This document shows, in pieces, positions 14,101 through 58,300 of a stretch of DNA of 64,000 bases. Position 1 is the stretch's first letter; each line of letters opens with the position of its first letter. Under the pieces are notes generated by a model, which had not been told where the DNA came from, did not search any database, and saw nothing but the letters and a program-made list of their open reading frames with translations. The translations under genes were made by a program, and so were the position numbers. Source of the stretch: Actinostola sp. cb2023 (Eukaryota; Cnidaria; Anthozoa; Actiniaria; Actinostolidae); contig JAUJYZ010000404.1 of assembly GCA_033675265.1 (NCBI GenBank), positions 143,501 through 207,500 of the forward strand, written 5' to 3'.

Positions 14101-17100
14101 TGATAACATTCTAAGGTGCATTTCTCATTTCTTTTTACTGTATCACCTTCATTTGTTTCTATTGTGCTATGAAAACATTCTAAGGTGCATTTCTCATTTC
14201 TTTTTACTGTATCACCTTCATTTGTTTCTATTGTGCTATGATAACATTCTAAGGTGCATTTCTCATTCTTTTTTTTACTGTATCACCTTCATTTGTTTCT
14301 ATTGTGTTATATGATAACATTCTAAGGTGCATTTCTCATTTCTTTTTACTGTATCACCTTCATTTGTTTCTATTGTGCTATGATAACATTCTAAGGTGCA
14401 TTTCTCATTTCTTTTTACTGTATCACCTTCATTTGTTTCTATTGTGCTATGATAACATTCTAAGGTGCATTTCTCATTTCTTTTTACTGTATCACCTTCA
14501 TTTGTTTCTATTGTGCTATGATAACATTCTAAGGTGCATTTCTCATTTCTTTTTACTGTATCACCTTCATTTGTTTCTATTGTGCTATGATAACATTCTA
14601 AGGTGCATTTCTCATTTCTTTTTACTGTATCACCTTCATTTGTTTCTATTGTGCTATGATAACATTCTAAGGTGCATTTCTCATTTCTTTTTACTGTATC
14701 ACCTTCATTTGTTTCTATTGTGCTATGATAACATTCTAAGGTGCATTTCTCATTTCTTTTTTACTGTATCACCTTCATTTGTTTCTATTGTGCTATGATA
14801 ACATTCTAAGGTGCATTTCTCATTTCTTTTTACTGTATCACCTTCATTTGTTTCTATTGTGCTATGATAACATTCTAAGGTGCATTTCTCATTTCTTTTT
14901 ACTGTATCACCTTCATTTGTTTCTATTGTGCTATGATAACATTCTAAGGTGCATTTCTCATTTTTTTTACTGTATCACCTTCATTTGTTTCTATTGTGCT
15001 ATGATAACATTCTAAGGTGCATTTCTCATTTCTTTTTACTGTATCACCTTCATTTGTTTCTATTGTGCTATGATAACATTCTAAGGTGCATTTCTCATTT
15101 CTTTTTACTGTATCACCTTCATTTGTTTCTATTGTGCTATGATAACATTCTAAGGTGCATTTCTCATTTCTTTTTACTGTATCACCTTCATTTGTTTCTA
15201 TTGTGCTATGATAACATTCTAAGGTGCATTTCTCATTTCTTTTTACTGTATCACCTTCATTTGTTTCTATTGTGCTATGATAACATTCTAAGGTGCATTT
15301 CTCATTTCTTTTTACTGTATCACCTTCATTTGTTTCTATTGTGCTATGATAACATTCTAAGGTGCATTTCTCATTTCTTTTTACTGTATCACCTTCATTT
15401 GTTTCTATTGTGCTATGATAACATTCTAAGGTGCATTTCTCATTTCTTTTTACTGTATCACCTTCATTTGTTTCTATTGTGCTATGATAACATTCTAAGG
15501 TGCATTTCTCATTTCTTTTTACTGTATCACCTTCATTTGTTTCTATTGTGCTATGATAACATTCTAAGGTGCATTTCTCATTTCTTTTTACTGTATCACC
15601 TTCATTTGTTTCTATTGTGCTATGATAACATTCTAAGGTGCATTTCTCATTTCTTTTTACTGTATCACCTTCATTTGTTTCTATTGTGCTATGATAACAT
15701 TCTAAGGTGCATTTCTCATTTCTTTTTACTGTATCACCTTCATTTGTTTCTACTGTGCTATGATAACATTCTAAGGTGCATTTCTCATTTCTTTTTACTG
15801 TATCACCTTCATTTGTTTCTATTGTGCTATGATAACATTCTAAGGTGCATTTCTCATTTCTTTTTACTGTATCACCTTCATTTGTTTCTATTGTGCTATG
15901 ATAACATTCTAAGGTGCATTTCTCATTTCTTTTTACTGTATCACCTTCATTTGTTTCTATTGTGCTATGATAACATTCTAAGGTGCATTTCTCATTTCTT
16001 TTTACTGTATCACCTTCATTTGTTTCTATTGTGCTATGATAACATTCTAAGGTGCATTTCTCATTTCTTTTTACTGTATCACCTCATTCATTTGTTTCTA
16101 TTGTGCTATGATAACATTCTAAGGTGCATTTCTCATTTCTTTTTACTGTATCACCTTCATTTGTTTCTATTGTGCTATGATAACATTCTAAGGTGCATTT
16201 CTCATTTCTTTTTACTGTATCACCTTCATTTGTTTCTATTGTGCTATGATAACATTCTAAGGTGCATTTCTCATTTCTTTTTACTGTATCACCTTCATTT
16301 GTTTCTATTGTGCTATGATAACATTCTAAGGTGCATTTCTCATTTCTTTTTACTGTATCACCTTCATTTGTTTCTATTGTGCTATGATAACATTCTAAGG
16401 TGCATTTCTCATTTCTTTTTACTGTATCACCTTCATTTGTTTCTATTGTGCTATGATAACATTCTAAGGTGCATTTCTCATTTCTTTTTACTGTATCACC
16501 TTCATTTGTTTCTATTGTGCTATGATAACATTCTAAGGTGCATTTCTCATTTCTTTTTACTGTATCACCTTCATTTGTTTCTATTGTGCTATGATAACAT
16601 TCTAAGGTGCATTTCTCATTTCTTTTTACTGTATCACCTTCATTTGTTTCTATTGTGCTATGATAACATTCTAAGGTGCATTTCTCATTTCTTTTTACTG
16701 TATCACCTTCATTTGTTTCTATTGTGCTATGATAACATTCTAAGGTGCATTTCTCATTTCTTTTTACTGTATCACCTTCATTTGTTTCTATTGTGCTATG
16801 ATAACATATGATAACATTCTAAGGTGCATTTCTCATTTCTTTTTACTGTATCACCTTCATTTGTTTCTATTGTGCTATGATAACATTCTAAGGTGCATTT
16901 CTCATTTCTTTTTACTGTATCACCTTCATTTGTTTCTATTGTGCTATGATAACATTCTAAGGTGCATTTCTCATTTCTTTTTACTGTATCACCTTCATTT
17001 GTTTCTATTGTGCTATGATAACATTCTAAGGTGCATTTCTCATTTCTTTTTACTGTATCACCTTCATTTGTTTCTATTGTGATATGATAACATTCTAAGG

Positions 17101-23100: not shown

Positions 23101-26100
23101 ACCAACCAGGCGAAAGCAACAGCAAAAACCCACAAGCTAACCAGCAATGGCAGAGCAAAGCAACGAGCAATGGCGGAGCAAGCGGCATGCGAGCAACGTG
23201 GCGAGCAACTGAGCCAGGCGCATGCGCAGTACCAATGATACCGCTGACCTGGCATCTCTCCTAGTTAACTTTGCTTACTAGTAACCACATATAACATTCT
23301 AAGGTGCATTTCTCATTTCTTTTTACTGTATCACCTTCATTTGTTTCTACTGTGCTATGATAACATTCTAAGGTGCATTTCTCATTTCTTTTTACTGTAT
23401 CACCTTCATTTGTTTCTACTGTGCTATGATAACATTCTAAGGTGCATTTCTCATTTCTTTTTACTGTATCACCTTCATTTGTTTCTATTGTGCTATGATA
23501 ACATTCTAAGGTGCATTTCTCATTTCTTTTTACTGTATCACCTTCATTTGTTTCTACTGTGCTATGATAACATGATAACATTCTAAGGTGCATTTCTCAT
23601 TTCTTTTTACTGTATCACCTTCATTTGTTTCTATTGTGCTATGATAACATTCTAAGGTGCATTTCTCATTTCTTTTTACTGTATCACCTTCATTTGTTTC
23701 TATTGTGCTATGATAACATTCTAAGGTGCATTTCTCATTTCTTTTTACTGTATCACCTTCATTTGTTTCTACTGTGCTATGATAACATTCTAAGGTGCAT
23801 TTCTCATTTCTTTTTACTGTATCACCTTCATTTGTTTCTATTGTGCTATGATAACATTCTAAGGTGCATTTCTCATTTCTTTTTACTGTATCACCTTCAT
23901 TGTTTTTCTACTGTGCTATGATAACATTCTAAGGTGCATTTCTCATTTCTTTTTACTGTATCACCTTCATTTGTTTCTATTGTGCTATGACAACATTCTA
24001 AGGTGCATTTCTCATTTCTCTTTACTGTATCACCTTCATTTGTTTCTATTGTGCTATGATAACATTCTAAGGTGCATTTCTCATTTCTTTTTACTGTATC
24101 ACCTTCATTTGTTTCTACTGTGCTATGATAACATTCTAAGGTGCATTTCTCATTTCTTTTTACTGTATCACCTTCATTTGTTTCTATTGTGCTATGATAA
24201 CATTCTAAGGTGCATTTCTCATTTCTTTTTACTGTATCACCTTCATTTGTTTCTACTGTGCTATGATAACATTCTAAGGTGCATTTCTCATTTCTTTTTA
24301 CTGTATCACCTTCATTTGTTTCTATTGTGCTATGATAACATTCTAAGGTGCATTTCTCATTTCTTTTTACTGTATCACCTTCATTTGTTTCTACTGTGCT
24401 ATGATAACATTCTAAGGTGCATTTCTCATTTCTTTTTACTGTATCACCTTCATTTGTTTCTATTGTGCTATGATAACATTCTAAGGTGCATTTCTCATTT
24501 CTTTTTACTGTATCACCTTCATTTGTTTCTATTGTGCTATGATAACATTCTAAGGTGCATTTCTCATTTCTTTTTACTGTATCACCTTCATTTGTTTCTA
24601 CTGTGCTATGATAACATTCTAAGGTGCATTTCTCATTTCTTTTTACTGTATCACCTTCATTTGTTTCTATTGTGCTATGATAACATTCTAAGGTGCATTT
24701 CTCATTTCTTTTTACTGTATCACCTTCATTTGTTTCTACTGTGCTATGATAACATTCTAAGGTGCATTTCTCATTTCTTTTTACTGTATCACCTTCATTT
24801 GTTTCTACTGTGCTATGATAACATTCTAAGGTGCATTTCTCATTTCTTTTTACTGTATCACCTTCATTTGTTTCTATTGTGCTATGATAACATTCTAAGG
24901 TGCATTTCTCATTTCTTTTTACTGTATCACCTTCATTTGTTTCTATTGTGCTATGATAACATTCTAAGGTGCATTTCTCATTTCTTTTTACTGTATCACC
25001 TTCATTTGTTTCTATTGTGCTATAATGATAACATTCTAAGGTGCATTTCTCATTTCTTTTTACTGTATCACCTTCATTTGTTTCTACTGTGCTATGATAA
25101 CATTCTAAGGTGCATTTCTCATTTCTTTTTACTGTATCACCTTCATTTGTTTCTACTGTGCTATGATAACATTCTAAGGTGCATTTCTCATTTCTTTTTA
25201 CTGTATCACCTTCATTTGTTTCTATTGTGCTATGATAACATTCTAAGGTGCATTTCTCATTTCTTTTTACTGTATCACCTTCATTTGTTTCTACTGTGCT
25301 ATGATAACATTCTAAGGTGCATTTCTCATTTCTTTTTACTGTATCACCTTCATTTGTTTCTATTGTGCTATGATAACATTCTAAGGTGCATTTCTCATTT
25401 CTTTTTACTGTATCACCTTCATTTGTTTCTACTGTGCTATGATAACATTCTAAGGTGCATTTCTCATTTCTTTTTACTGTATCACCTTCATTTGTTTCTA
25501 TTGTGCTATGATAACATTCTAAGGTGCATTTCTCATTTCTTTTTACTGTATCACCTTCATTTGTTTCTACTGTGCTATGATAACATTCTAAGGTGCATTT
25601 CTCATTTCTTTTTACTGTATCACCTTCATTTGTTTCTATTGTGCTATGATAACATTCTAAGGTGCATTTCTCATTTCTTTTTACTGTATCACCTTCATTT
25701 GTTTCTACTGTGCTATGATAACATTCTAAGGTGCATTTCTCATTTCTTTTTACTGTATCACCTTCATTTGTTTCTACTGTGCTATGATAACATTCTAAGG
25801 TGCATTTCTCATTTCTTTTTACTGTATCACCTTCATTTGTTTCTATTGTGCTATGATAACATTCTAAGGTGCATTTCTCATTTCTTTTTACTGTATCACC
25901 TTCATTTGTTTCTACTGTGCTATGATAACATTCTAAGGTGCATTTCTCATTTCTTTTTACTGTATCACCTTCATTTGTTTCTACTGTGCTATGATAACAT
26001 TCTAAGGTGCATTTCTCATTGCTTTTTACTGTATCACCTTCATTTGTTTCTATTGTGCTATGATAACATTCTAAGGTGCATTTCTCATTTCTTTTTACTG

Positions 26101-29100
26101 TATCACCTTCATTTGTTTCTATTGTGCTATGATAACATTCTAAGGTGCATTTCTCATTTCTTTTTACTGTATCACCTTCATTTGTTTCTACCTTCATTTG
26201 TTTCTATTGTGCTATGATAACATTCTAAGGTGCATTTCTCATTTCTTTTTACTGTATCACCTTCATTTGTTTCTATTGTGCTATGATAACATTCTAAGGT
26301 GCATTTCTCATTTCTTTTTACTGTATCACCTTCATTTGTTTCTATTGTGCTATGATAACATTCTAAGGTGCATTTCTCATTTCTTTTTACTGTATCACCT
26401 TCATTGTTTTTCTATTGTGCTATGATAACATTCTAAGGTGCATTTCTCATTGCTTTTTACTGTATCACCTTCATTTGTTTCTATTGTGTTATGATAACAT
26501 TCTAAGGTGCATTTCTCATTTCTTTTTACTGTATCACCTTGATTTGTTTCTATTGTGCTATGATAACATTTCTAAGGTGCATTTCTCATTTCTTTTTACT
26601 GTATCACCTTCATTTGTTTCTATTGTGCTATGATAACATTCTAAGGTGCATTTCTCATTTCTTTTTACTGTATCACCTTCATTTGTTTCTATTGTGCTAT
26701 GATAACATTCTAAGGTGCATTTCTCATTTCTTTTTACTGTATCACCTTCATTTGTTTCTATTGTGCTATGATAACATTCTAAGGTGCATTTCTCATTGCT
26801 TTTTACTGTATCACCTTCATTTGTTTCTATTGTGCTATGAAAACATTCTAAGGTGCATTTCTCATTTCTTTTTACTGTATCACCTTCATTTGTTTCTACT
26901 GTGCTATGAAAACATTCTAAGGTGCATTTCTCATTGCTTTTTACTGTATCACCTTCATTTGTTTCTATTGTGCTATGATAACATTCTAAGGTGCATTTCT
27001 CATTTCTTTTTACTGTATCACCTTCATTTGTTTCTACTGTGCTATGATAACATTCTAAGGTGCATTTCTCATTGCTTTTTACTGTATCACCTTCATTTGT
27101 TTCTATTGTGCTATGAAAACATTCTAAGGTGCATTTCTCATTTCTTTTTACTGTATCACCTTCATTTGTTTCTACTGTGCTATGATAACATTCTAAGGTG
27201 CATTTCTCATTGCTTTTTACTGTATCACCTTCATTTGTTTCTATTGTGCTATGAAAACATTCTAAGGTGCATTTCATTTCATTTCTTTTTACTGTATCAC
27301 CTTCATTTGTTTCTATTGTGCTATGATAACATTCTAAGGTGCATTTCTCATTTCTTTTTACTGTATCACCTTCATTTGTTTCTACTGTGCTATGATAACA
27401 TTCTAAGGTGCATTTCTCATTTTGCAATAAAGATTATCTCGTTTGAATGGTTTGAACTTTTCTGTACGAAATAAAACCAATATTACGGTGTACTCAATCC
27501 TTTTCGGTGTGATTCACAGATCTATATAAAGTAAGCATGCCATGTTCTAAGATAATAGTTCTTTAATAATCACTTCATGTAAATACTACTACTAATAATA
27601 ATAGTCTTTATTTAAAAGAGGGTGACAAACAAATAGCATATGCTAACAAACAAGTGGCCCTCTGAAGCTACAAAACTATATAAATATATATATAGTATAT
27701 ATATGGCCCTCTCGAAACAGAACTGTAGTGCCAATGCCATTGTAATAAATTTTCCTTTACATTATTCAATAAATATATATATATAGCTACCGTAATTGCA
27801 TAATCGTTGTCGGGTTGAAAATCATGAAAGCTATGACCAAAAGGAATTCTGGGAAATATATCTGCATGTAATGTAGCTCATGAACTGATTTCCCATCCAT
27901 CCTTGCGGTCTCAGCTTCTATGATTTATGATTTTCAACCCGACAACGATTATGCAATTAGCTATATATAAATAATATACAACTTACAATATACATTATGT
28001 AGAAATTACATAATTTTTTATTTTATTATACAGTTTGGCTGTTATGCCAGAATAAACCCCTTTCATCAACCCACTAATCATCTTAAAGGGCAACTGTGGC
28101 CTAAAATTGAAGGCAAACTACATTGTATATCAAACACTAAATATTTTAGAGCGAATTATTATGTATTGAGAACTAAACTCAATTCACTTTTATCATTTAT
28201 AGCATTTCCATCCTCAACGCTGATCTCCCCATCACTGACAACAATCATTGTTGCAAACAGCACAACAATAAGCTCCACTGCTCATCTAAGTTCAACTACA
28301 TCCTCTCACACCAGTCAAATCTCCAGCACCACCATAATCCCCATTGTAACAAGTGCAGTGGTGAAGACATCAAGTGGAAGTATCACACCGACACCAACTG
28401 TTCCTCCTACTTCAATATACAGTAACTTTACTACTGTTAAGCCAACTGTTCCTCCTACTTCAATATACAGTAACTTTACTACTGTTAAGCCAAGTGTTCA
28501 TCCTACGTCAGTATATAGGAATTTTACTACTGGTAAACCAAGTGTTCATCCTACGTCCAGGAATTTTTCCACTGTTCAACCAACTGCTCATCCTGCAGGT
28601 ACTGAAGTAGCTTGTACTGAGTTGATTTGTTTGTGCAAAACACCACATCACTGGGAAAATAAATTTGTGCTTGGATGTTGTTGTTTGGTAATAGCTGGCT
28701 TCTGATAGATGCTTCACTTGTAACACACAAAAGTTCCAGAGTGATGCTCTAGTGAATAAAGCTCAAAGATTTGTGAAAAGATAAACTAATACCTTTAAAC
28801 ACGAAACCGCGCTATAAAAGGGACTGGACCGCCTTCATTTCACACCTTTCCAGCTCAGTTGAATCAATTTGAAATGGTGGAGTAACATCTTTGTATTCAT
28901 GTCGTATTGAACGACTCAAAGTTCATAATTATTATTCAACTGGACTTCGATAAAACTGAGCTAAATATCAATATTTTCAAAACTGATCATTCAAAACTAA
29001 TAACAAGATTTTGAAAATGAGTTCTTGATGTTATTAAAAGAACGAAGAAAGTCAACAATTTGAAATTCAATTTTTTGAATTTAAATTTCGTGCCCATTGT

Positions 29101-36845: not shown

Positions 36846-39800
36846 ATGAGGGACGAATGTGACTTGGAAAACTCGCCATTTGAGTAAGTAAAATGTCCAC
36901 ACTTCAAACTTTGCACCTAACTTATAATCGATTTATCCACGAGACATGGCTGCAACTTTTATAAAGGTCTCATGACTTGAGAGATACATGTAGCTCACAG
37001 CTTCTCTAGAGTTGAACGAGGTAGCAAGATTGATTTGCAAGAAGGTTGGAAGTGAACGAATTACGAGAACTTCGTTTTAAATAAGCTTACGTACGTGAAG
37101 TAGAAGTAAGCTTACAGGAATTGTTATAAACCGAACAATTGCATCACCGTACATGCACCCGCCTAATTGTTTGACGTGTACTTTAACTTGCTGAAACGGT
37201 AGTTTTAAAGACGTAAATTTGTACAAGAATTTGGGATGCGAATATAAAGCTACTGTACGAATGCTTCGATCTCTTTGGATTTGGCTAGAATGAGATTTTA
37301 CAAAGGGAACGATCGATCGTTGCAATACTAGCAAAACATTGCACGAGTTTCATGGTGGATTTTAAATGACCTTGACTCAAAAACGTCTTGGCAACGTTAT
37401 TGGTCAGGTGCTCCAGTGATGTTCTAGGACGTGACTGTGTTGGATATTATTTACTTAAACTTATATAGCTTATTTAACGACTTTTAGAGATATATTGAGC
37501 CCGATCTAATCCGTGGATCGTTTTCTTTTCCAGCGATCCTGAACACATCATGAAAAGCAACATGTCACTTCAGTGGGCACTGCACGACGCGATGCAGACA
37601 GCGAAAGAACGAGGAGAATTGGTTGGAGGCGTTCATAGCGCTGCAGAACAACTAGACGAGTAAGTTACTGCTCAAATTAACACTTGAACAAGTTTTCTTG
37701 AATCATAAAACTTGTTAGGGATTTTCTGTGTTGTACGTAATATTGAAATCATTCTCCAAGCTAATTGAATCAATACTAAATTAAATTTATTCATTCATCC
37801 CAACGGGCTTTTCAGCATATAATTAACCTTGGACTTTGTACAAGGGCATCATACATTGTAAACATTTCATGTGTAGAATTGAGTGCCACCCCACGTTCCA
37901 AAATTAAGCTACAAGTGTTATTATGTACTACGGCGGGTCTATAACGCAGGTAGCAGGTAACAGGTAGCAGGTAACAGGTAACAGGTAACAGGTAACAGGT
38001 AACAGGTAACAGGTAGCAGGTAACAGGTAACAGGTAGCAGGTAACAGGTAACAGGTAACAGGTAACAGGTAGCAGGTAACAGGTAACAGGTAACAGGTAG
38101 CAGGTAACAGGTAACAGGTAACAGGTAACAGGTAACAGGTAGCAGGTAACAGGTAGCAGGTAACAGGTAGCAGGTAACAGGTAACAGGTAACAGGTAACA
38201 GGTAGCAGGTAACAGGTAGCAGGTAACAGGTAGCAGGTAACAAGTAACAGGTAACAGGTAGCAGGTAACAGGTAGCAGGTAACAGGTAGCAGGTAACAGG
38301 TAGCAGGTAACAGGTAGCAGGTAACAGGTAACAGGTAGCAGGTAACAGGTAGCAGGTAACAAGTAACAGGAAACAAGGGAGGGGAGGAGTGCGAGGAAGG
38401 GGCTATCGGACACTCGATGTCATCACTGTGACGTCATCGTCACGTTCTGATGACACCATCAACTACAATAAAATGTTTCCTTGAACCGATATTGTATCAA
38501 TTTGGTCAATGGGGTTTGTTGGTAAAGGAATTGAATGTGATAATACACATCCATAGCAACGAAGTCTGGCAAATAGGTAAGACCCCCCTAACGGGGTTCC
38601 ACTGTACATCCTGTTGGTATAGTAACATAAATCAACACAACAAATTTGGTAATGTCTTCAATTAATTAATTATTATTATTAATTAGTTTCTGAAAAGAAG
38701 AACAGTAAATAGATATAGGTTTTGGCGGGATTTTGGTCATGTGACCAAATGAAACACGAAATTTGTAGAAAGGAATTTCGGAAAACTACGCTGGGGGTCC
38801 GAATCTGCGTTTCTCTACTAAGTTTGCGGTGAAATCATAAACGTGAACTATTAATTGATGCCAACGAGTTTCTTTCAGTACTGGCTGACTTTTTCAGACT
38901 TTTTCAGTCTTTTTCAGTTGGCGAGACTAAGATTAGAATCAGTACAAAACCGGAAATGGTGTACTTCCATCCCGTTAGTGCCTGCTGCTCTGGACTGTCC
39001 AAGTCCGACGTCACACAGGGAAAACTTGTAGTCAGTGGAGAGGTGATGCGACAACTGAACAACGTGCACAAACGTATGATGTTCATAGAGTTTGGTCTCA
39101 CCCTTGATTGAGCTCAGTGTCAAATGAGAATTAGAACAATGTTGTGTTTTTTTCATTCACATTGTTATGGAAATTGGCACATGGCTATGATATTTGCAGA
39201 GTTTGCATGGTCTCATTGAGCTCAGTTTCAAATGAGAATTAGAACAATGTTGCTTTTTTTCATTCACATTGTTACGGAAATTGGCACAAGGCTATGATAT
39301 TTACAGAGTTTGCATGGTCTCATTGAGCTCAGTTTCAAATGAGAATTAGAACAATGTTGTTTTTTCATTCACATTGTTATCATACTGTTACTGTTCTTTG
39401 TTTTCAAAATCTAGTTAATTATCTTCAATTAATTACCAAATTTGTTGTATATATTGATTTTTAATATACCAACAGGGTAATTACTATGTACGTAATTACT
39501 ACATATCTTGTATATATTTTTGACGATATATTATGTGTGTTGGAATAAACTTAAAGTGCTACTATGATGAAATTTTGCGAGGTTGATGTTTTTGCATTTT
39601 TAGTATCCTGGTCAGTATGTTTATTAACATATCCAACCCGTTTTTCGTTACGATAAAAATAACTTCCACGAAATGTACAAACTTTGTACAAATTTCGAGC
39701 CAGCCATTATTCAAACTGGTTCCTGGCCGGTGACTAATTGTACAATAGAAGTGACGTCAGTTTCTCAACATCGTTCATCGCAAATTCGTCGCATGGCTAA

Positions 39801-42460
39801 TTTACACGCATCAACACTGCCATTTTTTGGCGATTCAAGACACTGTTTCTTGTTCAAATGTTTTAATCATGATTAAACTAAAAATACAGTGTAGGGAGCC
39901 GTACAGCGACGCGTTCACATTGAGAAACTGACGTCACAGTCTATTGTTCGCAGGAACACGATTTAGTAATGGCGGACGTATTTTTGCCTGTTTTGAGAGT
40001 CCAATATTAAACTCCTTTATTCTTATATCGACTTAAAAACAACTAAAAAACTGCTATCTTGGAGCTTAAAAGACTATTTTACGAATAAATTATTTATTCA
40101 GCAATCATACGAATTTCGTCATAGTAGCACTTTAAGATAGTTGGACGTGATCATTAATAAAAAATTACAGGTAAATTTACTAACCTGAAATTGTCAGCCT
40201 GCTACCAGAAAAAAACACTCATATAAAAAACACTCACGAGTCGATCATTTGTATATTATTCAATGATTATGTTCGTTATTATATCATACTGTTTCTATTC
40301 TTGCTTTTCAAAAACTAATTAATAATAATAATTAATTAATTGAAGACATTACCAAATTTGTTGTGTTGATTTATGTTACTATACCAACAGGATGTACAGT
40401 GGAACTCCGTTAGGGGGGTCTTACCTATTTGCCAGACTTCGTTGCTATGGATGTGTATTATCACATTCAATTCCTTTACCAACAAACCCCATTGACCAAA
40501 TTGATACAATATCGGTTCAAGGAAACATTTTATTGTAGTTGATGGTGTCATCAGAACGTGACGATGACGTCACAGTGATGACATCGAGTGTCCGATAGCC
40601 CCTTCCTCCCACCCCTCCCCTCCCTTGTTTCCTGTTACTTGTTACCTGCTACCTGTTACCTGCTACCTGTTACCTGTTACCTGTTACCTGTTACCTGCTA
40701 CCTACCTTACCTGTTACCTGTTACCTGTTACCTGTTACCTGTTACCTGCTACCTGTTACCTGTTACCTGCTACCTGTTACCTGCTACCTGTTACCTGTTA
40801 CCTGTTACCTGCTACCTGTTACCTGTTACCTGTTACCTGTTACCTGTTACCTGTTACCTGTTACCTGTTACCTGTTACCTGTTACCTGTTACCTGTTACC
40901 TGTTACCTGTTACCTGTTACCTGCTACCTGTTACCTGCTACCTGCGTTATAGACCCGCCGTTATGTACTAGCCTCAGCACAGGCATGCAGCCCAAGCTGT
41001 GATCTTGTGAATAATTAATTGTAGAGAATGTATGTAGAATTACAAAATAACGTACAATGGCACTTACGTTGTCAATAAAGAACTGAAAATTCACCACAGT
41101 GTTGATAATTTACTGTTCTATTGCCCTGATGTGTTAGTTTTGCTTTTATTTTTTTTCTCCCTATAAAAACGGCCTAAAACGCAAAACTAACACATCAGGG
41201 CAATAGAACAGTAAATTATCAACACTGTGGTGAATTTTCAGTCCTTTATTGACAACATAAGTGCCATTGTACGTTATTTTGTAATTCTACATACATTCTC
41301 TACAATTATTCACAAGATCACACTTGGGCTGCCTGTGGCCTCAGGGATGACCGACACAAAGGAGGCTAGTTAAATTATGTTGTTGACCAAAACGAACGAG
41401 AGTGTTATAAAAACTTTTTCTCCCATTTTAATCCCATTTCCCTTTTGCTCCAACAGAGATGCGAACGATATTGCTCTGTGCATCCTGGTCGACACCAAAA
41501 GAGCAGATCCTGGCATCCAGATTCACTGCCGTCTGATTGAAGCATTTTGCTGGGAATTTCCTATTCCAGTCATAAAGGTACAGCATGGAGTTCACTTATG
41601 AAATAAGATAATAAGCCATAAAAAAGGGAAAAGACAATTATAGTAGAGAAAGTGAAGGGAACCAAATATTTGTATGCATGAATCTGAGCAATTTTGGTCT
41701 GGCAAAACAATGGGATTGCTGTTTCTCATAGTGTGTATCCAATGAAGCCCTTATAGTGGGAAAGAGGGATCGGATGGGAGGGATGTTTATTTTCTGGCTT
41801 CTGCACAAACAAATACACACAAAAAGGATGTTTACATTCTCTACGGTCCGTACCGAAAATTATGGACCGCTAATTGACCAATCACAATTCAGCAATATTA
41901 ATAAGAGGTATTCAGGCACCAAAAGACTTGAATAAGCTTATCTGATATAGCAGACTATGTAGAGTATTAAAAGTGTTCTGTATGCTATCGTTTACAGGTT
42001 AATAGTAGCAGAAAGCTTATGGTACTTGCTGGCTACAGTTTTGGCCACCCAAAGGCAATCCACTGTATACTCATCAAGGTAAATAAATATATGAATTAAT
42101 TGATAATAATAATAATAATATGAGAATAAATAAAATGAAGAGAAGTGTATACATATTTTTTATGACAAAAAAATATGTATACACTTCTCTGACTTCTGAT
42201 CTAAAAAAATGCTTTGTGCGTGCGAGGCATCATGGGATTAATAATAATAATAATAATAATAATAAACTTTATTAATGTGATTGCACATTGGGTCTTTAGT
42301 TGTCGCCATTATTATCTACGATTGAGAAACCAGCAGTACGATGTATTTAACCTAGATATTGTTCTTGTATTTACAGGGCAACAGTGAACTGAGTCCATCG
42401 CTAGAAAAGATAATAAGATACGCAAAACAAGGGCCAGCCCCTTTGGTCAAATTGACATGA
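36846..42460 (+). CDS. GADD45: GADD45 family protein (149 aa, five exons)
   Basis: Exons are 36846-36883, 37534-37659, 41457-41577, 41998-42078 and 42377-42460. All introns are GT-AG, phases agree, and the sum is 450 nt including TGA. GADD45 proteins are small stress-induced nuclear regulators of the L7Ae/eL30 fold; in vertebrates they bind PCNA and p21 and activate the MAP3K4 kinase. The alignable core is AMQTAKERG, DANDIALCILVDT (vertebrate-like DNVVLCLLA), IQIHCRLIEAFCWE (LQIHFTLIQAFC) and HCILI. The acidic loop typical of vertebrate paralogues is replaced by a short VDTKRADPG. The length is close to the usual 160 aa. Intron 2 (3.8 kb) carries a 3-kb foldback element and a CACAGG element. 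Confidence 0.93.
37947..38372 (+). repeat. 7-bp minisatellite, left arm (about 60 units)
   Basis: Alternating ACAGGTA and GCAGGTA heptamers. Since 7 x 3 = 21 nt, all three minus-strand frames read the same Leu-Pro-Val/Ala-Thr-Cys-Tyr-Leu heptapeptide. In the sense of the GADD45 transcript each unit contains CAGGTA, and units of the form CAGGTAAC resemble 5' splice sites. Confidence 0.96.
38691..39554. repeat. core of Foldback-like element with three-copy 107-bp repeat
   Basis: Positions 39099-39380 hold two and a half copies of a roughly 107-bp unit (TGAGCTCAGTTTCAAATGAG, AACAATGTTG, TTCATTCACATTGTTA). Positions 39386-39480 resemble the inner end of the arms, suggesting an earlier rearrangement. 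No coding region was recognised. Confidence 0.8.
39555..40131. mobile_element. TTAA-flanked MITE nested in the Foldback-like element
   Basis: The ends AGTGCTACTATGATGAAATT and AATTTCGTCATAGTAGCACT are inverted with one mismatch and flanked by TTAA (39551-39554, 40132-40135), as for piggyBac/Kolobok elements. An inner sub-inverted repeat includes CTGACGTCA near 39755 and 39930. Confidence 0.82.
40630..40946 (-). repeat. 7-bp minisatellite, right arm (about 45 units)
   Basis: Inverted counterpart of 37947-38372 (TACCTGT/TACCTGC heptamers). The unit number and variant order differ from the left arm, so the arms have evolved separately. Confidence 0.96.
40978..41337. mobile_element. foldback element, CACAGG family, 7-bp TSD
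   Basis: A hairpin with about 165-bp arms sharing TCACCACAGTGTTGATAATT and CCTGATGTGTTAGTTTTGC. The termini are CACAGG...CCTGTG and the TSD is GCCTCAG (40971-40977, 41338-41344). It landed 10 bp outside the Foldback-like element. Confidence 0.9.
42139..42190. repeat. short near-perfect hairpin in GADD45 intron 4
   Basis: AGAGAAGTGTATACATATTT is followed 12 nt later by its inverse complement. The fold has a 22-23-bp stem and about a 5-nt loop. It is probably a degenerate terminal-repeat pair. Confidence 0.85.
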
Positions 42461-46351: not shown

Positions 46352-49300
46352 TCATGATTTCCAGTAATCACTGAGGCGTTTGGCCTGCTTGGATTTACTA
46401 AACACATTCAGGAATTGATTTTTCTTGATTATCTGTAACGCATTCGATGTATTACCTGAAATATGAACACAGAGATGAATCAGAGACCATCTGAAAGGGC
46501 ACAGAACTGCGTGGGATTTACAGTATAAACCAGCTAACTTGATATTTTAACATAGATCATATTATTGTGCGATCACATTCATTAGCGCGAGCGTGTATCC
46601 ATAACGCGATGGTGCATGCCTGTGCTCCATCAAATGATGTGTGCAAATGTTTTCACCACCATATATATGCGCATCATGCATTCTTTATTGTCGCTATGTT
46701 ATAAAAGAATTGGTTCATGCTTTTAGCTGTGCGTCTATCGAGTTATGGATGCACTTGGGAAGTTTGGAGAGCACTCAAGCTGCTCGAGTGCTCTCCAAAC
46801 TTCCCACGTACATCCATAACTCGATATGACGCACAGCTACATGTAAAAGCATGAACAAATTCTTAAATGTATGACACTAAACCAACGCCAGTTCACACAC
46901 TTCTGTAGTCTGAGTGGGGTTGGATTGTAAATGTGCTGCTTACCACATTGTAACTCAATATATACAGCTAACAATACCATCCTAGCGGACAAAGACTTTG
47001 AACTGCCTAGAGAACATGCCTGTAAATGACAATATGAAAATATTAGACTTGAAATAAAGTACACGTACATGTAGTATTGATTTACTAAATGGCAACACAA
47101 CCCACCAATGCAGATTGCAGTGCTTTAGATCCTATTTGAAATGGGTTCAATAAAAGTACACAGTGTACAAGTATTATGACATAACTTTTTTTATTATATA
47201 GCACAGATACTACGCACGCTCTTATTGGTCAATTAGCGGGCCATAACTTCCCGTACGGCCTGCTGAAAACAGAAAAGTAAGGAAAAAGCTATAATAAATA
47301 TCTTATTAACCTCGCTTGCTCGGTCCGTACGGGAAGTTATGGATCTTCGTTTCCCCCCACTTTTTCCCACTTTTTATGTGAAAACGCTGGAAGGAGAAAA
47401 AATGGCAACCATCCCTCCTCCCCGCGGTTATGATCCCTACTCTGCATCCCCTTGGAAAATGTCAAGAAATTAACTTCCAATACCTACAAAAGAATTAGAT
47501 TTCTCCTTTTGTATTTTCAGGATTTTTTCCCCTTTATTTACATGCGAAACGCCAACAAAGCGATTCATTACTAACTACATTGATTTACCTGACTGAGACA
47601 TTGCTTGGCTTTATCATATTCACTTCTCAGGCTGTAGGTACTTGCAAGATTCTACTAACTACATTGATTTACCTGACTAAGACATTGCTTGGCTTTATCA
47701 TATTCACTTCTCAGGCTGTAAGTACTTGCAAGATTCTACTAACTACATTGATTTACCTGACTGAGACATTGCTTGGCTTTATCATATTCACTTCTCAGGC
47801 TGTAGGTACTTGCAAGATTCTACTAACTACATTGATTTACCTGACTAAGACATTGCTTGGCTTTATCATATTCACTTCTCAGGCTGTAGGTACTTGCAAG
47901 ATTCTACTAACTACATTGATTTACCTGACTGAGACATTGCTTGGCTTTATCATATTCACTTCTCAGGCTGTAAGTACTTGCAAGATTCTACTAACTACAT
48001 TGATTTACCTGACTAAGACATTGCTTGGCTTTATCATATTCACTTCTCAGGCTGTAGGTACTTGCAAGATTCTACTAACTACATTGATTTACCTGACTGA
48101 GACATTGCTTGGCTTTATCATATTCACTTCTCAAGCTGTAAGTACTTGCAAGATTCTACTAACTACATTGATTTACCTGACTGAGACATTGCTTGGCTTT
48201 ATCATATTCACTTCTCAGGCTGTAGGTACTTGCAAGATTCTACTAACTACATTGATTTACCTGACTGAGACATTGCTTGGCTTTATCATATTCACTTCTC
48301 AGGCTGTAAGTACTTGCAAGATTCTACTAACTACATTGATTTACCTGACTAAGACATTGCTTGGCTTTATCATATTCACTTCTCAGGCTGTAAGTACTTG
48401 CAAGATTCTACTAACTACATTGATTTACCTGACTAAGACATTGCTTGGCTTTATCATATTCACTTCTCAGGCTGTAGGTACTTGCAAGATTCTACTAACT
48501 ACATTGATTTACCTGACTAAGACATTGCTTGGCTTTATCATATTCACTTCTCAGGCTGTAGGTACTTGCAAGATTCTACTAACTACATTGATTTACCTGA
48601 CTAAGACATTGCTTGGCTTTATCATATTCACTTCTCAGGCTGTAGGTACTTGCAAGATTCTACTAACTACATTGATTTACCTGACTGAGACATTGCTTGG
48701 CTTTATCATATTCACTTCTCAGGCTGTAAGTACTTGCAAGATTCTACTAACTACATTGATTTACCTGACTGAGACATTGCTTGGCTTTATCATATTCACT
48801 TCTCAGGCTGTAGGTACTTGCAAGATTCTACTAACTACATTGATTTACCTGACTGAGACATTGCTTGGCTTTATCATATTCACTTCTCAGGCTGTAAGTA
48901 CTTGCAAGATTCTACTAACTACATTGATTTACCTGACTGAGACATTGCTTGGCTTTATCATATTCACTTCTCAGGCTGTAGGTACTTGCAAGATTCTACT
49001 AACTACATTGATTTACCTGACTGAGACATTGCTTGGCTTTATCATATTCACTTCTCAGGCTGTAGGTACTTGCAAGATTCTACTAACTACATTGATTTAC
49101 CTGACTGAGACATTGCTTGGCTTTATCATATTCACTTCTCAGGCTGTAAGTACTTGCAAGATTCTACTAACTACATTGATTTACCTGACTGAGACATTGC
49201 TTGGCTTTATCATATTCACTTCTCAGGCTGTAGGTACTTGCAAGATTCTACTAACTACATTGATTTACCTGACTAAGACATTGCTTGGCTTTATCATATT

Positions 49301-52300
49301 CACTTCTCAGGCTGTAGGTACTTGCAAGATTCTACTAACTACATTGATTTACCTGACTGAGACATTGCTTGGCTTTATCATATTCACTTCTCAGGCTGTA
49401 GGTACTTGCAAGATTCTACTAACTACATTGATTTACCTGACTAAGACATTGCTTGGCTTTATCATATTCACTTCTCAGGCTGTAAGTACTTGCAAGATTC
49501 TACTAACTACATTGATTTACCTGACTGAGACATTGCTTGGCTTTATCATATTCACTTCTCAGGCTGTAGGTACTTGCAAGATTCTACTAACTACATTGAT
49601 TTACCTGACTAAGACATTGCTTGGCTTTATCATATTCACTTCTCAGGCTGTAGGTACTTGCAAGATTCTACTAACTACATTGATTTACCTGACTGAGACA
49701 TTGCTTGGCTTTATCATATTCACTTCTCAGGCTGTAGGTACTTGCAAGATTCTACTAACTACATTGATTTACCTGACTGAGACATTGCTTGGCTTTATCA
49801 TATTCACTTCTCAGGCTGTAGGTACTTGCAAGATTCTACTAACTACATTGATTTACCTGACTAAGACATTGCTTGGCTTTATCATATTCACTTCTCAGGC
49901 TGTAGGTACTTGCAAGATTCTACTAACTACATTGATTTACCTGACTAAGACATTGCTTGGCTTTATCATATTCACTTCTCAGGCTGTAGGTACTTGCAAG
50001 ATTCTACTAACTACATTGATTTACCTGACTGAGACATTGCTTGCTTTATCATATTCACTTCTCAGGCTGTAGGTACTTGCAAGATTCTACTAACTACATT
50101 GATTTACCTGACTGAGACATTGCTTGGCTTTATCATATTCACTTCTCAGGCTGTAGGTACTTGCAAGATTCTACTAACTACATTGATTTACCTGACTAAG
50201 ACATTGCTTGGCTTTATCATATTCACTTCTCAGGCTGTAGGTACTTGCAAGATTCTACTAACTACATTGATTTACCTGACTGAGACATTGCTTGGCTTTA
50301 TCATATTCACTTCTCAGGCTGTAGGTACTTGCAAGATTCTACTAACTACATTGATTTACCTGACTGAGACATTGCTTGGCTTTATCATATTCACTTCTCA
50401 GGCTGTAGGTACTTGCAAGATTCTACTAACTACATTGATTTACCTGACTGAGACATTGCTTGGCTTTATCATATTCACTTCTCAGGCTGTAAGTACTTGC
50501 AAGATTCTACTAACTACATTGATTTACCTGACTGAGACATTGCTTGGCTTTATCATATTCACTTCTCAGGCTGTAGGTACTTGCAAGATTCTACTAACTA
50601 CATTGATTTACCTAAGACATTGCTTGGCTTTATCATATTCACTTCTCAGGCTGTAGGTACTTGCAAGATTCTACTAACTACATTGATTTACCTGACTAAG
50701 ACATTGCTTGGCTTTATCATATTCACTTCTCAGGCTGTAGGTACTTGCAAGATTCTACTAACTACATTGATTTACCTGACTAAGACATTGCTTGGCTTTA
50801 TCATATTCACTTCTCAGGCTGTAGGTACTTGCAAGATTCTACTAACTACATTGATTTACCTGACTAAGACATTGCTTGGCTTTATCATATTCACTTCTCA
50901 GGCTGTAAGTACTTGCAAGATTCTACTAACTACATTGATTTACCTGACTAAGACATTGCTTGGCTTTATCATATTCACTTCTCAGGCTGTAAGTACTTGC
51001 AAGATTCTACTAACTACATTGATTTACCTGACTAAGACATTGCTTGGCTTTATCATATTCACTTCTCAGGCTGTAGGTACTTGCAAGATTCTACTAACTA
51101 CATTGATTTACCTGACTGAGACATTGCTTGGCTTTATCATATTCACTTCTCAGGCTGTAGGTACTTGCAAGATTCTACTAACTACATTGATTTACCTGAC
51201 TGAGACATTGCTTGGCTTTATCATATTCACTTCTCAAGCTGTAAGTACTTGCAAGATTCTACTAACTACATTGATTTACCTGACTAAGACATTGCTTGGC
51301 TTTATCATATTCACTTCTCAGGCTGTAAGTACTTGCAAGATTCTACTAACTACATTGATTTACCTGACTGAGACATTGCTTGGCTTTATCATATTCACTT
51401 CTCAGGCTGTAAGTACTTGCAAGATTCTACTAACTACATTGATTTACCTGACTAAGACATTGCTTGGCTTTATCATATTCACTTCTCAGGCTGTAGGTAC
51501 TTGCAAGATTCTACTAACTACATTGATTTACCTGACTAAGACATTGCTTGGCTTTATCATATTCACTTCTCAGGCTGTAAGTACTTGCAAGATTCTACTA
51601 ACTACATTGATTTACCTGACTGAGACATTGCTTGGCTTTATCATATTCACTTCTCAGGCTGTAGGTACTTGCAAGATTCTACTAACTACATTGATTTACC
51701 TGACTAAGACATTGCTTGGCTTTATCATATTCACTTCTCAGGCTGTAGGTACTTGCAAGATTCTACTAACTACATTGATTTACCTGACTGAGACATTGCT
51801 TGGCTTTATCATATTCACTTCTCAAGCTGTAGGTACTTGCAAGATTCTACTAACTACATTGATTTACCTGACTAAGACATTGCTTGGCTTTATCATATTC
51901 ACTTCTCAGGCTGTAGGTACTTGCAAGATTCTACTAACTACATTGATTTACCTGACTAAGACATTGCTTGGCTTTATCATATTCACTTCTCAGGCTGTAG
52001 GTACTTGCAAGATTCTACTAACTACATTGATTTACCTGACTAAGACATTGCTTGGCTTTATCATATTCACTTCTCAGGCTGTAGGTACTTGCAAGATTCT
52101 ACTAACTACATTGATTTACCTGACTAAGACATTGCTTGGCTTTATCATATTCACTTCTCAGGCTGTAAGTACTTGCAAGATTCTACTAACTACATTGATT
52201 TACCTGACTAAGACATTGCTTGGCTTTATCATATTCACTTCTCAGGCTGTAAGTACTTGCAAGATTCTACTAACTACATTGATTTACCTGACTGAGACAT

Positions 52301-55300
52301 TGCTTGGCTTTATCATATTCACTTCTCAGGCTGTAGGTACTTGCAAGATTCTACTAACTACATTGATTTACCTGACTGAGACATTGCTTGGCTTTATCAT
52401 ATTCACTTCTCAGGCTGTAAGTACTTGCAAGATTCTACTAACTACATTGATTTACCTGACTGAGACATTGCTTGGCTTTATCATATTCACTTCTCAGGCT
52501 GTAGGTACTTGCAAGATTCTACTAACTACATTGATTTACCTGACTAAGACATTGCTTGGCTTTATCATATTCACTTCTCAGGCTGTAGGTACTTGCAAGA
52601 TTCTACTAACTACATTGATTTACCTGACTAAGACATTGCTTGGCTTTATCATATTCACTTCTCAGGCTGTAGGTACTTGCAAGATTCTACTAACTACATT
52701 GATTTACCTGACTAAGACATTGCTTGGCTTTATCATATTCACTTCTCAGGCTGTAGGTACTTGCAAGATTCTACTAACTACATTGATTTACCTGACTAAG
52801 ACATTGCTTGGCTTTATCATATTCACTTCTCAGGCTGTAGGTACTTGCAAGATTATAAAGAAGTGTAGCTTTGCCTTCATTGAAAGACTGAGGGTAGTCT
52901 GTCTTTTCACAACCTGAAAGCAAAATGAATAGATAGACAGGATAAATGAATGAATGAATGAATGAACAAATGAACCAACAAAAGGATAAACAAATGAAAG
53001 AGGGAATGAACCAACAAACATTAAACAGTACACTACAACTGCTAATAATTGATAAACACAGCCAGTCAACATAAGCTTGTAATCACTGACCCATTGGTTT
53101 TGCTTGTTTTTATTTACTTTTTTTAACTTCTGCACAACACCAAAGAATCACAACCTCCTCAAAACCTGGCAATTCACCTGGCCCTGGCTGCACGAAAGGT
53201 GGTTAGCGCGACATAGCGGAAAAACTGCAAAGCTGCTGTTTTCATACAGTTTTCATTAACTGGCAATGATACATCAAAAACTGCAATTGATACATTTGTG
53301 ATACCATTACTCAAAACTTGTGGCAAAATCTTATTAAGTTACAGTAAAGCTTCTCGGAGATATTTACGAAAATGATGTTTTTTCTGCTGATCAAAATGTC
53401 ACCTCTCCCAAAGTACAAGGCCCTTATATCTCTGATATACATTCACCGAATTTTGATGGCATTTGACATTTTGTTATTTGAGCATAAAAGGGCTTGTATA
53501 CAAAATATTGAGCTTAACAACCTATAGGTGTCCTTATTAGAAGAGGCTATAAAACATTTTTCCGCTCTGCTGGTTAGCGCTATCCACCAGATAAGTCCTA
53601 TCCAACAGATAAAATGCAACCTGGGCCAGACATGTATCACAATCCATCAAACTTACAGTGAGGTCTTGTTTCTCTTTCCTTGTCACCTTTCTCTGAACCA
53701 CCTATAACATGTAAACAAGTGTATGTTCTCATGTCAACTGATGCATGCATGGACAATGACTGACTGGCTGATTGACAGGACAGCATACACGGACACACAC
53801 ACCAACAAGCAGACATACAAATGGTCAGCCAGACATGTAGCCACACAGATGGGCAGTCTGTCAGCTGGCAGACAGAGGTAAACATGGAGGTGCAGACATG
53901 CCTGTCCTAAAATGAAGGGGTCTGTGCAAGAACAATGCAAGTGATCACTGATCAAAATCTAAATTCTCATTGAGACTGTATGAATTCCAAAGGAGAATTT
54001 GGATTTTGATCACACGTTTCCATGGACCCCTGTGTATATTGCCTTACCTCCAGCATTGTCCCCTGCAGGTCCTATATTAATATCACTTATATTATCACAT
54101 GATAAATGTGTGATTGCCTCTGATATGTGGTTTAACTTGATTAAAGATTCAGCTGCATATAAATGTCCTAGAAATCTGAAAGACACAAACAAAGATATAA
54201 ATGTAAACATTCTTCAAAAAAGACACAAACAGATCACTTTTTATAACATAGGTATGATATAACACGCGCTCTGATTGGCTGGATAGCGTGTGTCCGCAAG
54301 CCCATGAACACACGTTACGGACACACGCTCACGTCATCACCATAGCGCACACTCTGAAATCAATCGGAAAATTAAATTGTTTTATTTGAATTTGCAGTGG
54401 CTATGCTATAAAAGAAATGATCAATGCTTTAGCTGTGAGTCGATCGAGTTATGGAGCACGCGGGAATTTGGGAGAGCACTCGTGAAGCTAGAGTTGCTCT
54501 ATGCTACATCTCGAGCAACTCTTACGCTTCTCTCGTGCTCTCCCAAATTCCCACGTGCTCCATAACTCGATGGACGCATGCTAAGCGTTGACCATTTCAT
54601 AATAGTCCCTTTTCGCATTCACAGATCCCGTTGTAAAACCGCTGTACTTATTGACATCAGACGCATTTGTACAGGGTTAGCCTCGAGTCAGTGTAAATTA
54701 TTCACAAATATCAACAAGAACACGAAAAAATGTTGACATGAAACAATATAATTTTTTTTGAATTGCACGGACTGTTTTCTGGAACGAGGCTGAGCCTGTA
54801 CAAATGCGTCTTTTGTCAAGGACAGCAGTCATCTCTAAACAACGCGAAACTAGAGTATTGCTATGACAACATTCAAGCCCTGTTCTGTGTGCTACGTTTT
54901 TGGAAGAGCTCTTCATAAGAAAAAGAAACACACAGATTGGCTCTCCATTGCTACAGTACTCAGACGACCTTCTATGTATTACCTCTTTGGAAGAGTATAG
55001 TACTAATAAGCCACTTCACGCTTTCGCCCGCCATTTTGAATTGGGGCAAGCGCGTGGAAATTTATAGAAATCTGGATCACTTTGGCTTGCCGTAACTCCG
55101 CTCGATTTCGTTGGATTTTCAATAACTTACCATAATTTTAGACAAGATGTTTTCTTTGTTATTTATGTCCTATAATATGATGGGTATTGGAAGGCTACAA
55201 ATCGAGCAAAAAAGTTTTTCGTTTTCAAAATAAAACGTTCGGCACGTGAATATGCAAATTAGCTGGAATTTTAAAGATACATTCGTGAAAAGAAGATTGA

Positions 55301-58300
55301 CTCGTAAAAGGTAGTTAAAACACCTACATTGATCTTATTTTCACTCCAACAACTGATATGCATGCCTGCTGATCATCGAAGTTTAAATTTTGAAAATCCA
55401 ACAAAATAGAACAGTGTTTTAATATGGGAAGTCAAAGTGATCCAGATTTCTATAAATTTCCACGCGTTTGCCCCAATTCAAAATGGCGGACGAAAGCGTG
55501 AAGTGGCTTATTATTCTATCCAATGTAACCAAGGTATTTATTTGTTCACTCACTTGTGTGATCCTGACATATTAGTGTGTTCTAGTAGCCGCTGTGCATG
55601 TTCTAGTGCTGTGACATTGTCACCTAATCCCAGGGACACATACGCACTACAACATAGCATGGCACACCTGCAAATACAACAATAGTAAACTCAGCTCCAC
55701 TCACAAGACATATAAACAATAGTTTCCATGTAATATGTCTGTGTGATTCCACTGTTTGAGGAACATAATCTGTTCAAGACTGAAAGGATCCATGTAAGAG
55801 ATTAGCCAATTCAGAGTTGATGTTTGCAGGGCATCGCGGGCTGTTTTGAGGGACGCTTTATGTTCAATATGGAGAGTGCAAGTTTGAATAGTGATGTACC
55901 AAAGTTTGAAGTAAGTGAGCTTATTATGTTTCCCAGTCGTTTCCTCATGTTTTACAGTAAATAGACAGCAATGGTGCCCCTCAAAACAGCCCCACAATTC
56001 CATTCGAGCATTTACTCCAAAATGGCTAACAGTGGACTTGTGATCAAAATCCAAGTTCCTCTTTGGAGTCAAAGAACTTGAGCCTGCTAGAATTTAGTCT
56101 TTTGAGAGGAGCACAGAGTCCATCTCTAAACAACGCGAAAAGTATTGCTATGACAACATTCAAGCCCTGTTCTGTGTGCTACGTTTTTTGGAAGAGCTCT
56201 TCATAAGAAAAAGAAACACACAGATTGGCTCTCCATTGCTACAGTACTCAGACGACCTTCTATGTATTACCTCTTTGGAAGAGTATAGTACTAATAAGCC
56301 ACTTCACGCTTTCGCCCGCCATTTTGAATTGGGGCAAGCGCGTGGAAATTTATAGAAATCTGGATCACTTTGGCTTGCCGTAACTCCGCTCGATTTCGTT
56401 GGATTTTCAATAACTTACCATAATTTTAGACAAGATGTTTTCTTTGTTATTTATGTCCTATAATATGATGGGTATTGGAAGGCTACAAATCGAGCAAAAA
56501 AGTTTTTCGTTTTCAAAATAAAACGTTCGGCACGTGAATATGCAAATTAGCTGGAATTTTAAAGATACATTCGTGAAAAGAAGATTGACTCGTAAAAGGT
56601 AGTTAAAACACCTACATTGATCTTATTTTCACTCCAACAACTGATATGCATGCCTGCTGATCATCGAAGTTTAAATTTTGAAAATCCAACAAAATAGAAC
56701 AGTGTTTTAATATGGGAAGTCAAAGTGATCCAGATTTCTATAAATTTCCACGCGTTTGCCCCAATTCAAAATGGCGGACGAAAGCGTGAAGTGGCTTATT
56801 ATTCTATCCAATGTAACCAAGGTATTTATTTGTTCACTCACTTGTGTGATCCTGACATATTAGTGTGTTCTAGTAGCCGCTGTGCATGTTCTAGTGCTGT
56901 GACATTGTCACCTAATCCCAGGGACACATACGCACTACAACATAGCATGGCACACCTGCAAATACAACAATAGTAAACTCAGCTCCACTCACAAGACATA
57001 TAAACAATAGTTTCCATGTAATATGTCTGTGTGATTCCACTGTTTGAGGAACATAATCTGTTCAAGACTGAAAGGATCCATGTAAGAGATTAGCCAATTC
57101 AGAGTTGATGTTTGCAGGGCATCGCGGGCTGTTTTGAGGGACGCTTTATGTTCAATATGGAGAGTGCAAGTTTGAATAGTGATGTACCAAAGTTTGAAGT
57201 AAGTGAGCTTATTATGTTTCCCAGTCGTTTCCTCATGTTTTACAGTAAATAGACAGCAATGGTGCCCCTCAAAACAGCCCCACAATTCCATTCGAGCATT
57301 TACTCCAAAATGGCTAACAGTGTAAGTGACTTGTGATCAAAATCCAAGTTCCTCTTTGGAGTCAAAGAACTTCAATGAGCTAGAATTTAGTGTTTGATGA
57401 TGTTCTTGCACAATTAATCTCTTCAGTGATTCTGTAGTGCAAGTAAGAATACACTTACTGTAGCTTGTGTGACACAATGGAATACAATAACATTGATATA
57501 TATGTAAAAGGCTTAAAATTTTAGATAAAAATTGCTTAAAAACGTTTTTGCCTGTTAAGTCATCATCAGTTATATATAACATTTATTTCAACACGATAGT
57601 AATTAAAGCGTTGCTGCTTGTGGGGTTGTGTATTTAAAATAAACTAGATAACTAATATTAAGCCATCAGGTTTACCCCGTCAAGCTAGAAATGACCAGTT
57701 TGCTGTAGTCATAAATAACCTACCTGATGTTGGGGATTTCTTTTAATTTGATAGGTGGACCTGGAAGAGCTGGAATACTAGACTCTACAGACGCTGAAGT
57801 TCTTGGTGTATCACTCTCACTACAAACATTATAGCAAAAATGTCATGCCAATTTCATTACACCACATAACAGCTTAAATTAGAACGGATTCCAAGTAACT
57901 GCCTAATCAATTTCTCTAGATAGGTGTCCCCAAATAGCCTACTGTCACTGTAAGCTAGCTCATTAAGGCATGTTAATAAAGTTTATTATTATCAAAACAC
58001 AAGTGGGGACATGTTGCACATACAGTTCATGAGGGCAGGACACACATATAAAGTGTCTTTGTTTTTTCATGAAAATTGCAGATACATACAAACTGACTTA
58101 TTACAGGCACCCTTGTATGTGCCAGGAGGGGAGGTACAGGAAAGGAGGCACAGGAGAGGAGGCACAGGAGGGGAGGCACAGGAGGGGAGGAGGAGGGGAG
58201 GCACAGGAGGGGAGGCACAGAAGGGGAGGCACAGGAGGGGAGGCACAGGAGCGTAGGCACAGGAGGGGAGGCACAGGAGAGGACGCACAGGAGGTGAGGC

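Follow-up and report, generated by a model that had tools for sequence, protein, structure and literature searches.

A 63-copy exon-end minisatellite of the mirage type in a CNOT10 intron of the anemone Actinostola sp.

Introduction

Minisatellites that span exon-intron boundaries are known as 'mirages', and Canestro et al. 2002 (doi 10.1093/nar/gkf386) is said to be their original report. The name was given to repeats in the amphioxus globin genes BflGb6 and BflGb9 and in Adh3, where the Adh3 data and reverse-transcription PCR (RT-PCR) of the globins suggest that splicing is regular despite their presence (PMC3087553; this and the other reports are cited from excerpts of their text). The same source notes that mirages differ in length between haplotypes, cites somatic instability and carries the proposal that mirages are an origin of new introns (PMC3087553). 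In this study we describe an array of this structure at the end of an exon of the CNOT10 gene, within a 64,000-nucleotide stretch of the Actinostola sp. assembly (contig JAUJYZ010000404.1, positions 143,501 to 207,500) that is referred to below as the window. Actinostola sp. is a deep-sea anemone (Cnidaria, Anthozoa, Actiniaria) and CNOT10 is a CCR4-NOT subunit.

Several other systems are related in part. Human genes in segmental duplications carry variable internal tandem repeats (mean 30 bp x 4) where exons meet introns (PMC2812944), while intron gain by tandem duplication has been reported for ATP2A1, the 24-bp AGGT repeats of fission yeast and the potato RdRp (PMC4974935). In abalone, an intron of a TSSK1-like gene contains a length-polymorphic minisatellite with a 27-bp unit present '62 times' (PMC6905558). 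The tandem AGGT units of human UBC, which are coding, are spliced unit-wise through dual-specific sites whose use was shown by RT-PCR (PMC10809524). Among open-licence full texts screened by title and the start of the abstract, none on exon-junction repeats in cnidarians was found, which is not a claim that such repeats are unpublished.

Results

Structure of the array

The array occupies most of the intron following the TPR exon of CNOT10, with head-to-tail units in the sense orientation of the gene. The features involved are listed below in window coordinates.

52792..52913, minus strand, CNOT10 TPR exon of 122 nt, the array source (frame, splice sites, PDB CNOT10 match, TPR_2)
47020..52791, minus strand, host intron of 5,772 bp (exon limits), of which the array makes up 5,223 bp (90.5%)
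47569-52854, minus strand, tandem array of CNOT10 exon end and intron (Tandem Repeats Finder, TRF: period 84, 63.0 copies, 98% matches, score 10166)
52771..52854, minus strand, copy 1, 63 nt of exon and 21 nt of intron (unit splitting)
47569..52791, minus strand, intronic part of the array, made up of the 21 nt of copy 1 and copies 2-63 (TRF, unit splitting)
50591..50670, minus strand, copy 27, 80 bp, with 4 nt lost just before the junction and AG/GT retained
50004..50086, minus strand, copy 34, 83 bp, with a 1-nt deletion in the exon-derived part
47020..47568, minus strand, intron remainder past the array, with the acceptor TTTACAG at its end
46944..47019, minus strand, next CNOT10 exon, 76 nt (in-frame joining, 8bfi_B match)
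46352..46455, minus strand, last CNOT10 exon with the stop codon (in-frame joining, 8bfi_B match)

The 84-bp unit, AATCTTGCAAGTA...CTTAGTCAG/GTAAATCAATGTAGTTAGTAG (here and below the slash marks the exon-intron boundary), joins the final 63 nt of the TPR exon to the 21 nt with which the next intron begins, as the first-pass annotation of this DNA had proposed. Cutting the array at unit starts yields 63 copies with starts from 52854 down to 47651, of which 61 are 84 bp long, one is 80 bp and one is 83 bp. That annotation had placed all 63 copies inside the intron, between 47569 and 52852. The copy number and the start at 47569 stand, whereas the array reaches 52854 and, since copy 1 is the genuine exon end, 62 of the copies are wholly intronic. 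Its estimate of about 5.2 kb of a 5.77-kb intron, in the orientation of the gene, agrees with the lengths given above.

The donor of the exon itself, CAG/GTAAAT, lies at 52792/52791 within copy 1. Retention of a donor by every copy, likewise claimed earlier, was borne out: the junction AGGTAAATCAATG (AG/GTAAAT) is found in 63/63 copies, and CAGGTAAATCAATG in 62/63 with the 80-bp copy as the exception. The first four copies do not differ from one another. In the 61 copies of full length, base changes are confined to positions 15 (C>T), 22 (C>T) and 57 (T>C) and to the final base of the last copy, and divergence among the array copies is about 1%. The array is assembled without N and has unique flanks on both sides. 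A DNA search of the species' own assembly (424 Mb) with the unit placed 63/63 matches in the CNOT10 array, with one candidate region that was scored; a search of this type does not prove rarity. Two long open frames run antisense through the array, one of 857 codons (47499-50072, plus strand) and one of 793 codons (50536-52917, plus strand), and are likely to give rise to false gene predictions and annotation errors.

The host gene and the source of the unit

Seven exons in the window join in frame into a product of 227 amino acids that matches the solved CNOT10 chain 8bfi_B (E 1.9e-59), presumably the human protein; the gene assignment and the exon limits 52913-52792 of the first-pass annotation were thereby confirmed. 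The alignment to this chain is ungapped at the array intron (CLSQ/ACSL vs CLHQ/AASM), and a TPR_2 match (E 2.8e-6, residues 143-172) falls mostly in the array exon. The peptide encoded by the array exon occurs once each in CNOT10 of Actinia, Nematostella, Desmophyllum and Acropora, with the next exon directly after it, and also matches solved CNOT10 chains in the PDB. CNOT10 of other animals conserves this peptide, which identifies the array exon as the source of the repeat unit.

All 69 of the 69 listed matches to the full-length CNOT10 of Actinia tenebrosa are on the window's contig (C989), where the protein aligns exon by exon, array copies included, in a genome search in which 61 of 81 candidate regions were scored. 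No CNOT10 gene other than that of the window turned up in the Actinostola sp. assembly, and no second haplotype of the locus was found in searches of this one assembly. Local tblastn recovered 17 CNOT10 exons, one of them duplicated, and did not find a stretch of about 37 residues; the number of introns is about 16-17.

Splice signals in the unit

One of the eight GTs in the consensus unit scores 8/9 against the U1 consensus, level with the best of seven real donors, whose scores range from 6 to 8. At the unit's 11 AGs, 4-9 of the 16 preceding bases are pyrimidines, compared with 11-13 out of 16 at eight real acceptors, which represent seven distinct exons as one is duplicated. These scores are simple counts and not the output of a trained model. 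Upon read-through, TAG TAG follows in frame after the first 21-nt intron piece. Each later donor would add about 84 nt per copy to the exon and, because TAG TAG would be added in frame, the transcript would be a likely target of nonsense-mediated decay. The copies lack a good acceptor and should not become extra exons, and exon definition would favour the 122-nt exon. Given the weak acceptors and the in-frame stops that come with later donors, we expect that the first donor is used and that the array is spliced out together with the intron. As the junction reads AG/GT, splicing from the first donor to the AG of any copy would drop whole units and restore the same exon end and donor. As long as the first donor is the one in use, the mRNA would look the same whether the array grew, shrank or was spliced internally.

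Further exon-end arrays

Two further exon-end arrays were identified in addition to the one described above, the first of them in the DNA that flanks the window.

C989:207000-216999 (segment L009), about 3740 down to 3002, minus strand, second CNOT10 exon-end array with at least 6 copies including the exon's own, sense, donor side
C450:20001-30000 (segment L021), 8492-8958, plus strand, third array, at a predicted exon end, 117-bp unit with 4 copies including the exon's own, sense, donor side

The second CNOT10 array advances in steps of 111, 111, 111, 119 and 109 bp, repeats the donor ATG/GTAAGA together with the start of the intron and enters an assembly gap; its source exon matches residues 319-380 of 8fy3_B (E 4.9e-21). 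The third array repeats the predicted exon end ...EFQEYEQ/GTAAAGTGAC, with the donor CAG/GTAAAG and the start of the intron in its copies. This predicted exon has no PDB match to E 10 and no Pfam match to E 1, and was called from its frame, acceptor and donor.

A total of 331,922 bases, comprising the window, 30 kb flanks and 24 segments, were scanned for arrays with a period of at least 30. The segments were not a random choice but followed fixed contig-number steps with one common offset, and the sample includes stretches of N, which make up 12,501 of its first 294,000 bases. With strict thresholds, three of 64 arrays were exon-end arrays, compared with 0/61 in the reversed and 0/64 in the complemented controls; since all three had been spotted by eye beforehand, the scan measures specificity and not discovery. 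Relaxed thresholds returned seven arrays against seven and six in the controls, which is chance level, and 3'-splice-site arrays numbered 0/55 in the sampled DNA other than segments L032-L035. One of the three exon-end arrays falls in the 24 segments (about 238 kb), which leaves room for any number from tens to thousands in the whole genome. Divisibility of the unit lengths by three (84, 111 and 117) was considered as a signal and dismissed as unremarkable, since 25 of the 64 sampled arrays share it.

Other exons and repeats

The remaining CNOT10 exons of the window are located upstream of the array exon.

53657..53701, minus strand, CNOT10 exon of 45 nt (in-frame joining)
54048..54175, minus strand, CNOT10 exon of 128 nt (in-frame joining)
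55554..55667, minus strand, CNOT10 exon of 114 nt, the copy used in the 227-residue product (in-frame joining)
56842..56955, minus strand, second copy of the 114-nt CNOT10 exon
57724..57819, minus strand, CNOT10 exon of 96 nt (in-frame joining)

The 114-nt exon is doubled by a 1.3-kb tandem duplication (window 54791-56102 and 56079-57395, 97.9% identical), and inclusion of both copies would keep the frame (38 codons). Its peptide is present once in each of the four cnidarian relatives.

Tandem repeats with a period of at least 10 and at least three copies make up 12.2% of the DNA in 20 10-kb segments (L012-L031). An 80-bp array of about 90 copies adjoins the window (L011:1-7346). A 69-bp unit forms two arrays of the same orientation in the window (11891-18296 and 23291-27422), about 5 kb apart, with a reverse-transcriptase frame (PF00078, 20628-21230, minus strand) and other long frames between them; we take this arrangement to resemble a tyrosine-recombinase retroelement. 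Heptamer arrays of (CAGGTAA)n occur at 37947-38375 (plus strand) and, in the other orientation, at 40626-40944, with matching flanks. They contain donor-like strings but were rejected as kin of the CNOT10 array, as by eye they lie in two inverted copies of one element; their period places them outside the strict scan.

Discussion

Origin of the array and competing explanations

We consider it very probable that the array has no function and is a mirage-type minisatellite that arose through one duplication of the junction, expanded, and was tolerated since the genuine donor stays first. The ends of the duplication have AATC in common (exon TTTATAATCTTGC, intron past the last copy GTAATGAATCGC, unit junction GTAGAATCTTGC), which fits replication slippage or microhomology repair. 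Judging from the breakpoints, the initial step would have been a short tandem duplication over the 5' splice site that took in 63 nt of the exon end and about 21 nt of the intron start. A single slippage- or microhomology-mediated duplication followed by expansion would account for the AATC ends, with one extra small change required by a two-base difference next to the unit junction. Unequal exchange or more slippage may then have raised the array to 63 copies and held them about 99% alike, and the array would have been tolerated with the genuine exon and donor remaining first in line. The array is probably neutral. RNA structure of two units was rejected as a driver, as it gave no signal (z -0.77; 44 of 200 shuffles fold equally well).

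Three points weigh against this account. Normal splicing of CNOT10 is an assumption drawn from the sequence; 84-bp copies cannot be placed uniquely by short reads, and the copy number and variant order are possibly wrong in part; and the presence of the donor in 63/63 copies may reflect selection and not youth. Counter to the last of these, the other positions of the unit are almost equally uniform: all variation amounts to three variable sites, a single end substitution and a pair of small deletions.

The 424.3-Mb Actinostola genome was assembled from PacBio and Illumina reads with DBG2OLC, Racon and short-read polishing by Pilon, and its genes were predicted by homology and de novo methods; RNA is not mentioned in the main text of the genome paper (PMC10803348). 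Inflation of a few real copies to 63 by long-read consensus or polishing is very unlikely. Such an artefact would agree with the finding that sites 15 and 57 vary independently of each other from copy to copy (Fisher p 0.79) and with multi-copy block repeats that do not exceed expectation (longest 4, shuffle mean 4.9), both of which could stem from short-read polishing, and the neighbouring CNOT10 array is cut off by an assembly gap. The array, however, is placed between unique flanks without N, the 20-kb library insert can span its 5.3 kb (PMC10803348), the differences among copies are transitions and two small deletions, and other long arrays are present in the sampled segments. Block-wise expansion was considered separately and rejected, as a repeated multi-copy haplotype was not above chance; this test is uninformative given the short-read polishing, which also makes the variant order among near-identical copies unreliable, and that order was not used as a basis. 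Distinctly unlikely, too, is the reach of coding selection into the array, whereby copies would exchange with the true exon end in copy 1 and only silent variants would spread. The three variable positions in the exon-derived part (15, 22 and 57) are all synonymous in the exon frame, with p 0.039 when 22 of the 63 possible transitions are synonymous, but these are three sites only, each of them a pyrimidine transition; within that class of change 14 of 27 possibilities are synonymous, which gives p 0.12. Polishing has possibly altered the variant pattern, and the two deletions break the frame, yet each is in a single copy.

Stepwise removal of the intron, in which each AG/GT would act as a dual-specific splice site and whole 84-nt units would be excised tracelessly, is unlikely. 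Retention of AG/GTAAAT in 63/63 copies speaks for it, as does a GT...AG spacing of one unit, with which a splice from the donor of copy 1 to the AG of any copy keeps the exon sequence, and human UBC units are spliced in this way (PMC10809524). On the other hand, the AG/GT site has 8 of 16 pyrimidines upstream compared with 11-13 at the eight real acceptors, and another AG lies four bases upstream of it. The AGGT of UBC-type repeats is present in every unit, whereas the 5,772-bp intron is not a multiple of 84 (5772/84 = 68.7). In the second CNOT10 array the junction is ATG/GT without AG, and unit-wise recursive splicing would thus be impossible there. Introners are units with splice signals, and the array is like them in this respect. 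Repeated insertion of a mobile element or introner with its own splice signal is nevertheless extremely improbable, since the 63 nt taken from the exon encode a conserved part of CNOT10 and the unit is not dispersed but stands head-to-tail in one place, with 63/63 genome matches inside the CNOT10 array.

Significance

It is a tentative possibility that exon-end mirages form a genome-wide class in Actinostola. Introns would then still be growing through copies of the 5' splice junction at their own start, growth in whole units at AG/GT junctions would not show in the mRNA, and tens to thousands of arrays genome-wide are possible. The AG/GT junction is present in two of the three exon-end arrays seen and CNOT10 alone has two arrays in its roughly 16-17 introns. 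Three arrays in about 0.33 Mb, two of them in the gene singled out by the initial finding, suggest that chordates are not the only animals in which this process operates and that it is perhaps not rare in minisatellite-rich genomes. The CNOT10 array is also a natural experiment on donor choice, as 63 near-identical 5' splice sites follow one another between two acceptors and proximity, exon definition and recursive splicing could each play a part. Its importance would rise if the class is widespread or if the copies are used in splicing.

Comparison with known systems

Like human UBC, the CNOT10 array has AGGT once per tandem unit and unit-sized introns are formally possible, whereas its units are intronic, bear stops and have weak acceptors. 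The abalone TSSK1-like repeat is similarly a high-copy minisatellite in the intron of a coding gene, differing in that an exon origin is not stated in the excerpt of that report (PMC6905558). With the intron gain by tandem duplication described by Rogers, the array shares a short duplicated segment with AG/GT (PMC4974935). In place of a new intron in a former exon, an existing intron has been enlarged: the array lies within one intron and the flanking coding sequence is contiguous with that of relatives. The human boundary repeats are also minisatellite-sized and located at exon-intron boundaries of genes, but the excerpt discusses them as a source of novel introns (PMC2812944), whereas in CNOT10 an existing intron grew.

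The closest likeness is to the amphioxus mirages, which are also tandem boundary-spanning copies beside a genuine exon, many of which keep a splice signal; the 3' boundary of the exon is duplicated in BflGb9 as it is in CNOT10 (PMC3087553). The two differ in taxon (cnidarian vs cephalochordate), in copy number (63 vs 6 and 3 in two BflGb6 haplotypes), in unit length (84 bp vs 150-160 and 157 bp in the globins and 10-72 bp in Adh3) and in the similarity of copies (about 1% divergence vs 81-100% identity in BflGb6) (PMC3087553). The earlier description of the array as unusual has to be tempered, since mirages had already been named (PMC3087553) and two more cases are present in the same genome, one of which involves an exon that is predicted only and lacks support from homology. 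In CNOT10 the unit spans a genuine exon-intron boundary and the tandem copies adjoin that boundary. By structure, the CNOT10 array is a mirage, a known kind of repeat in another phylum.

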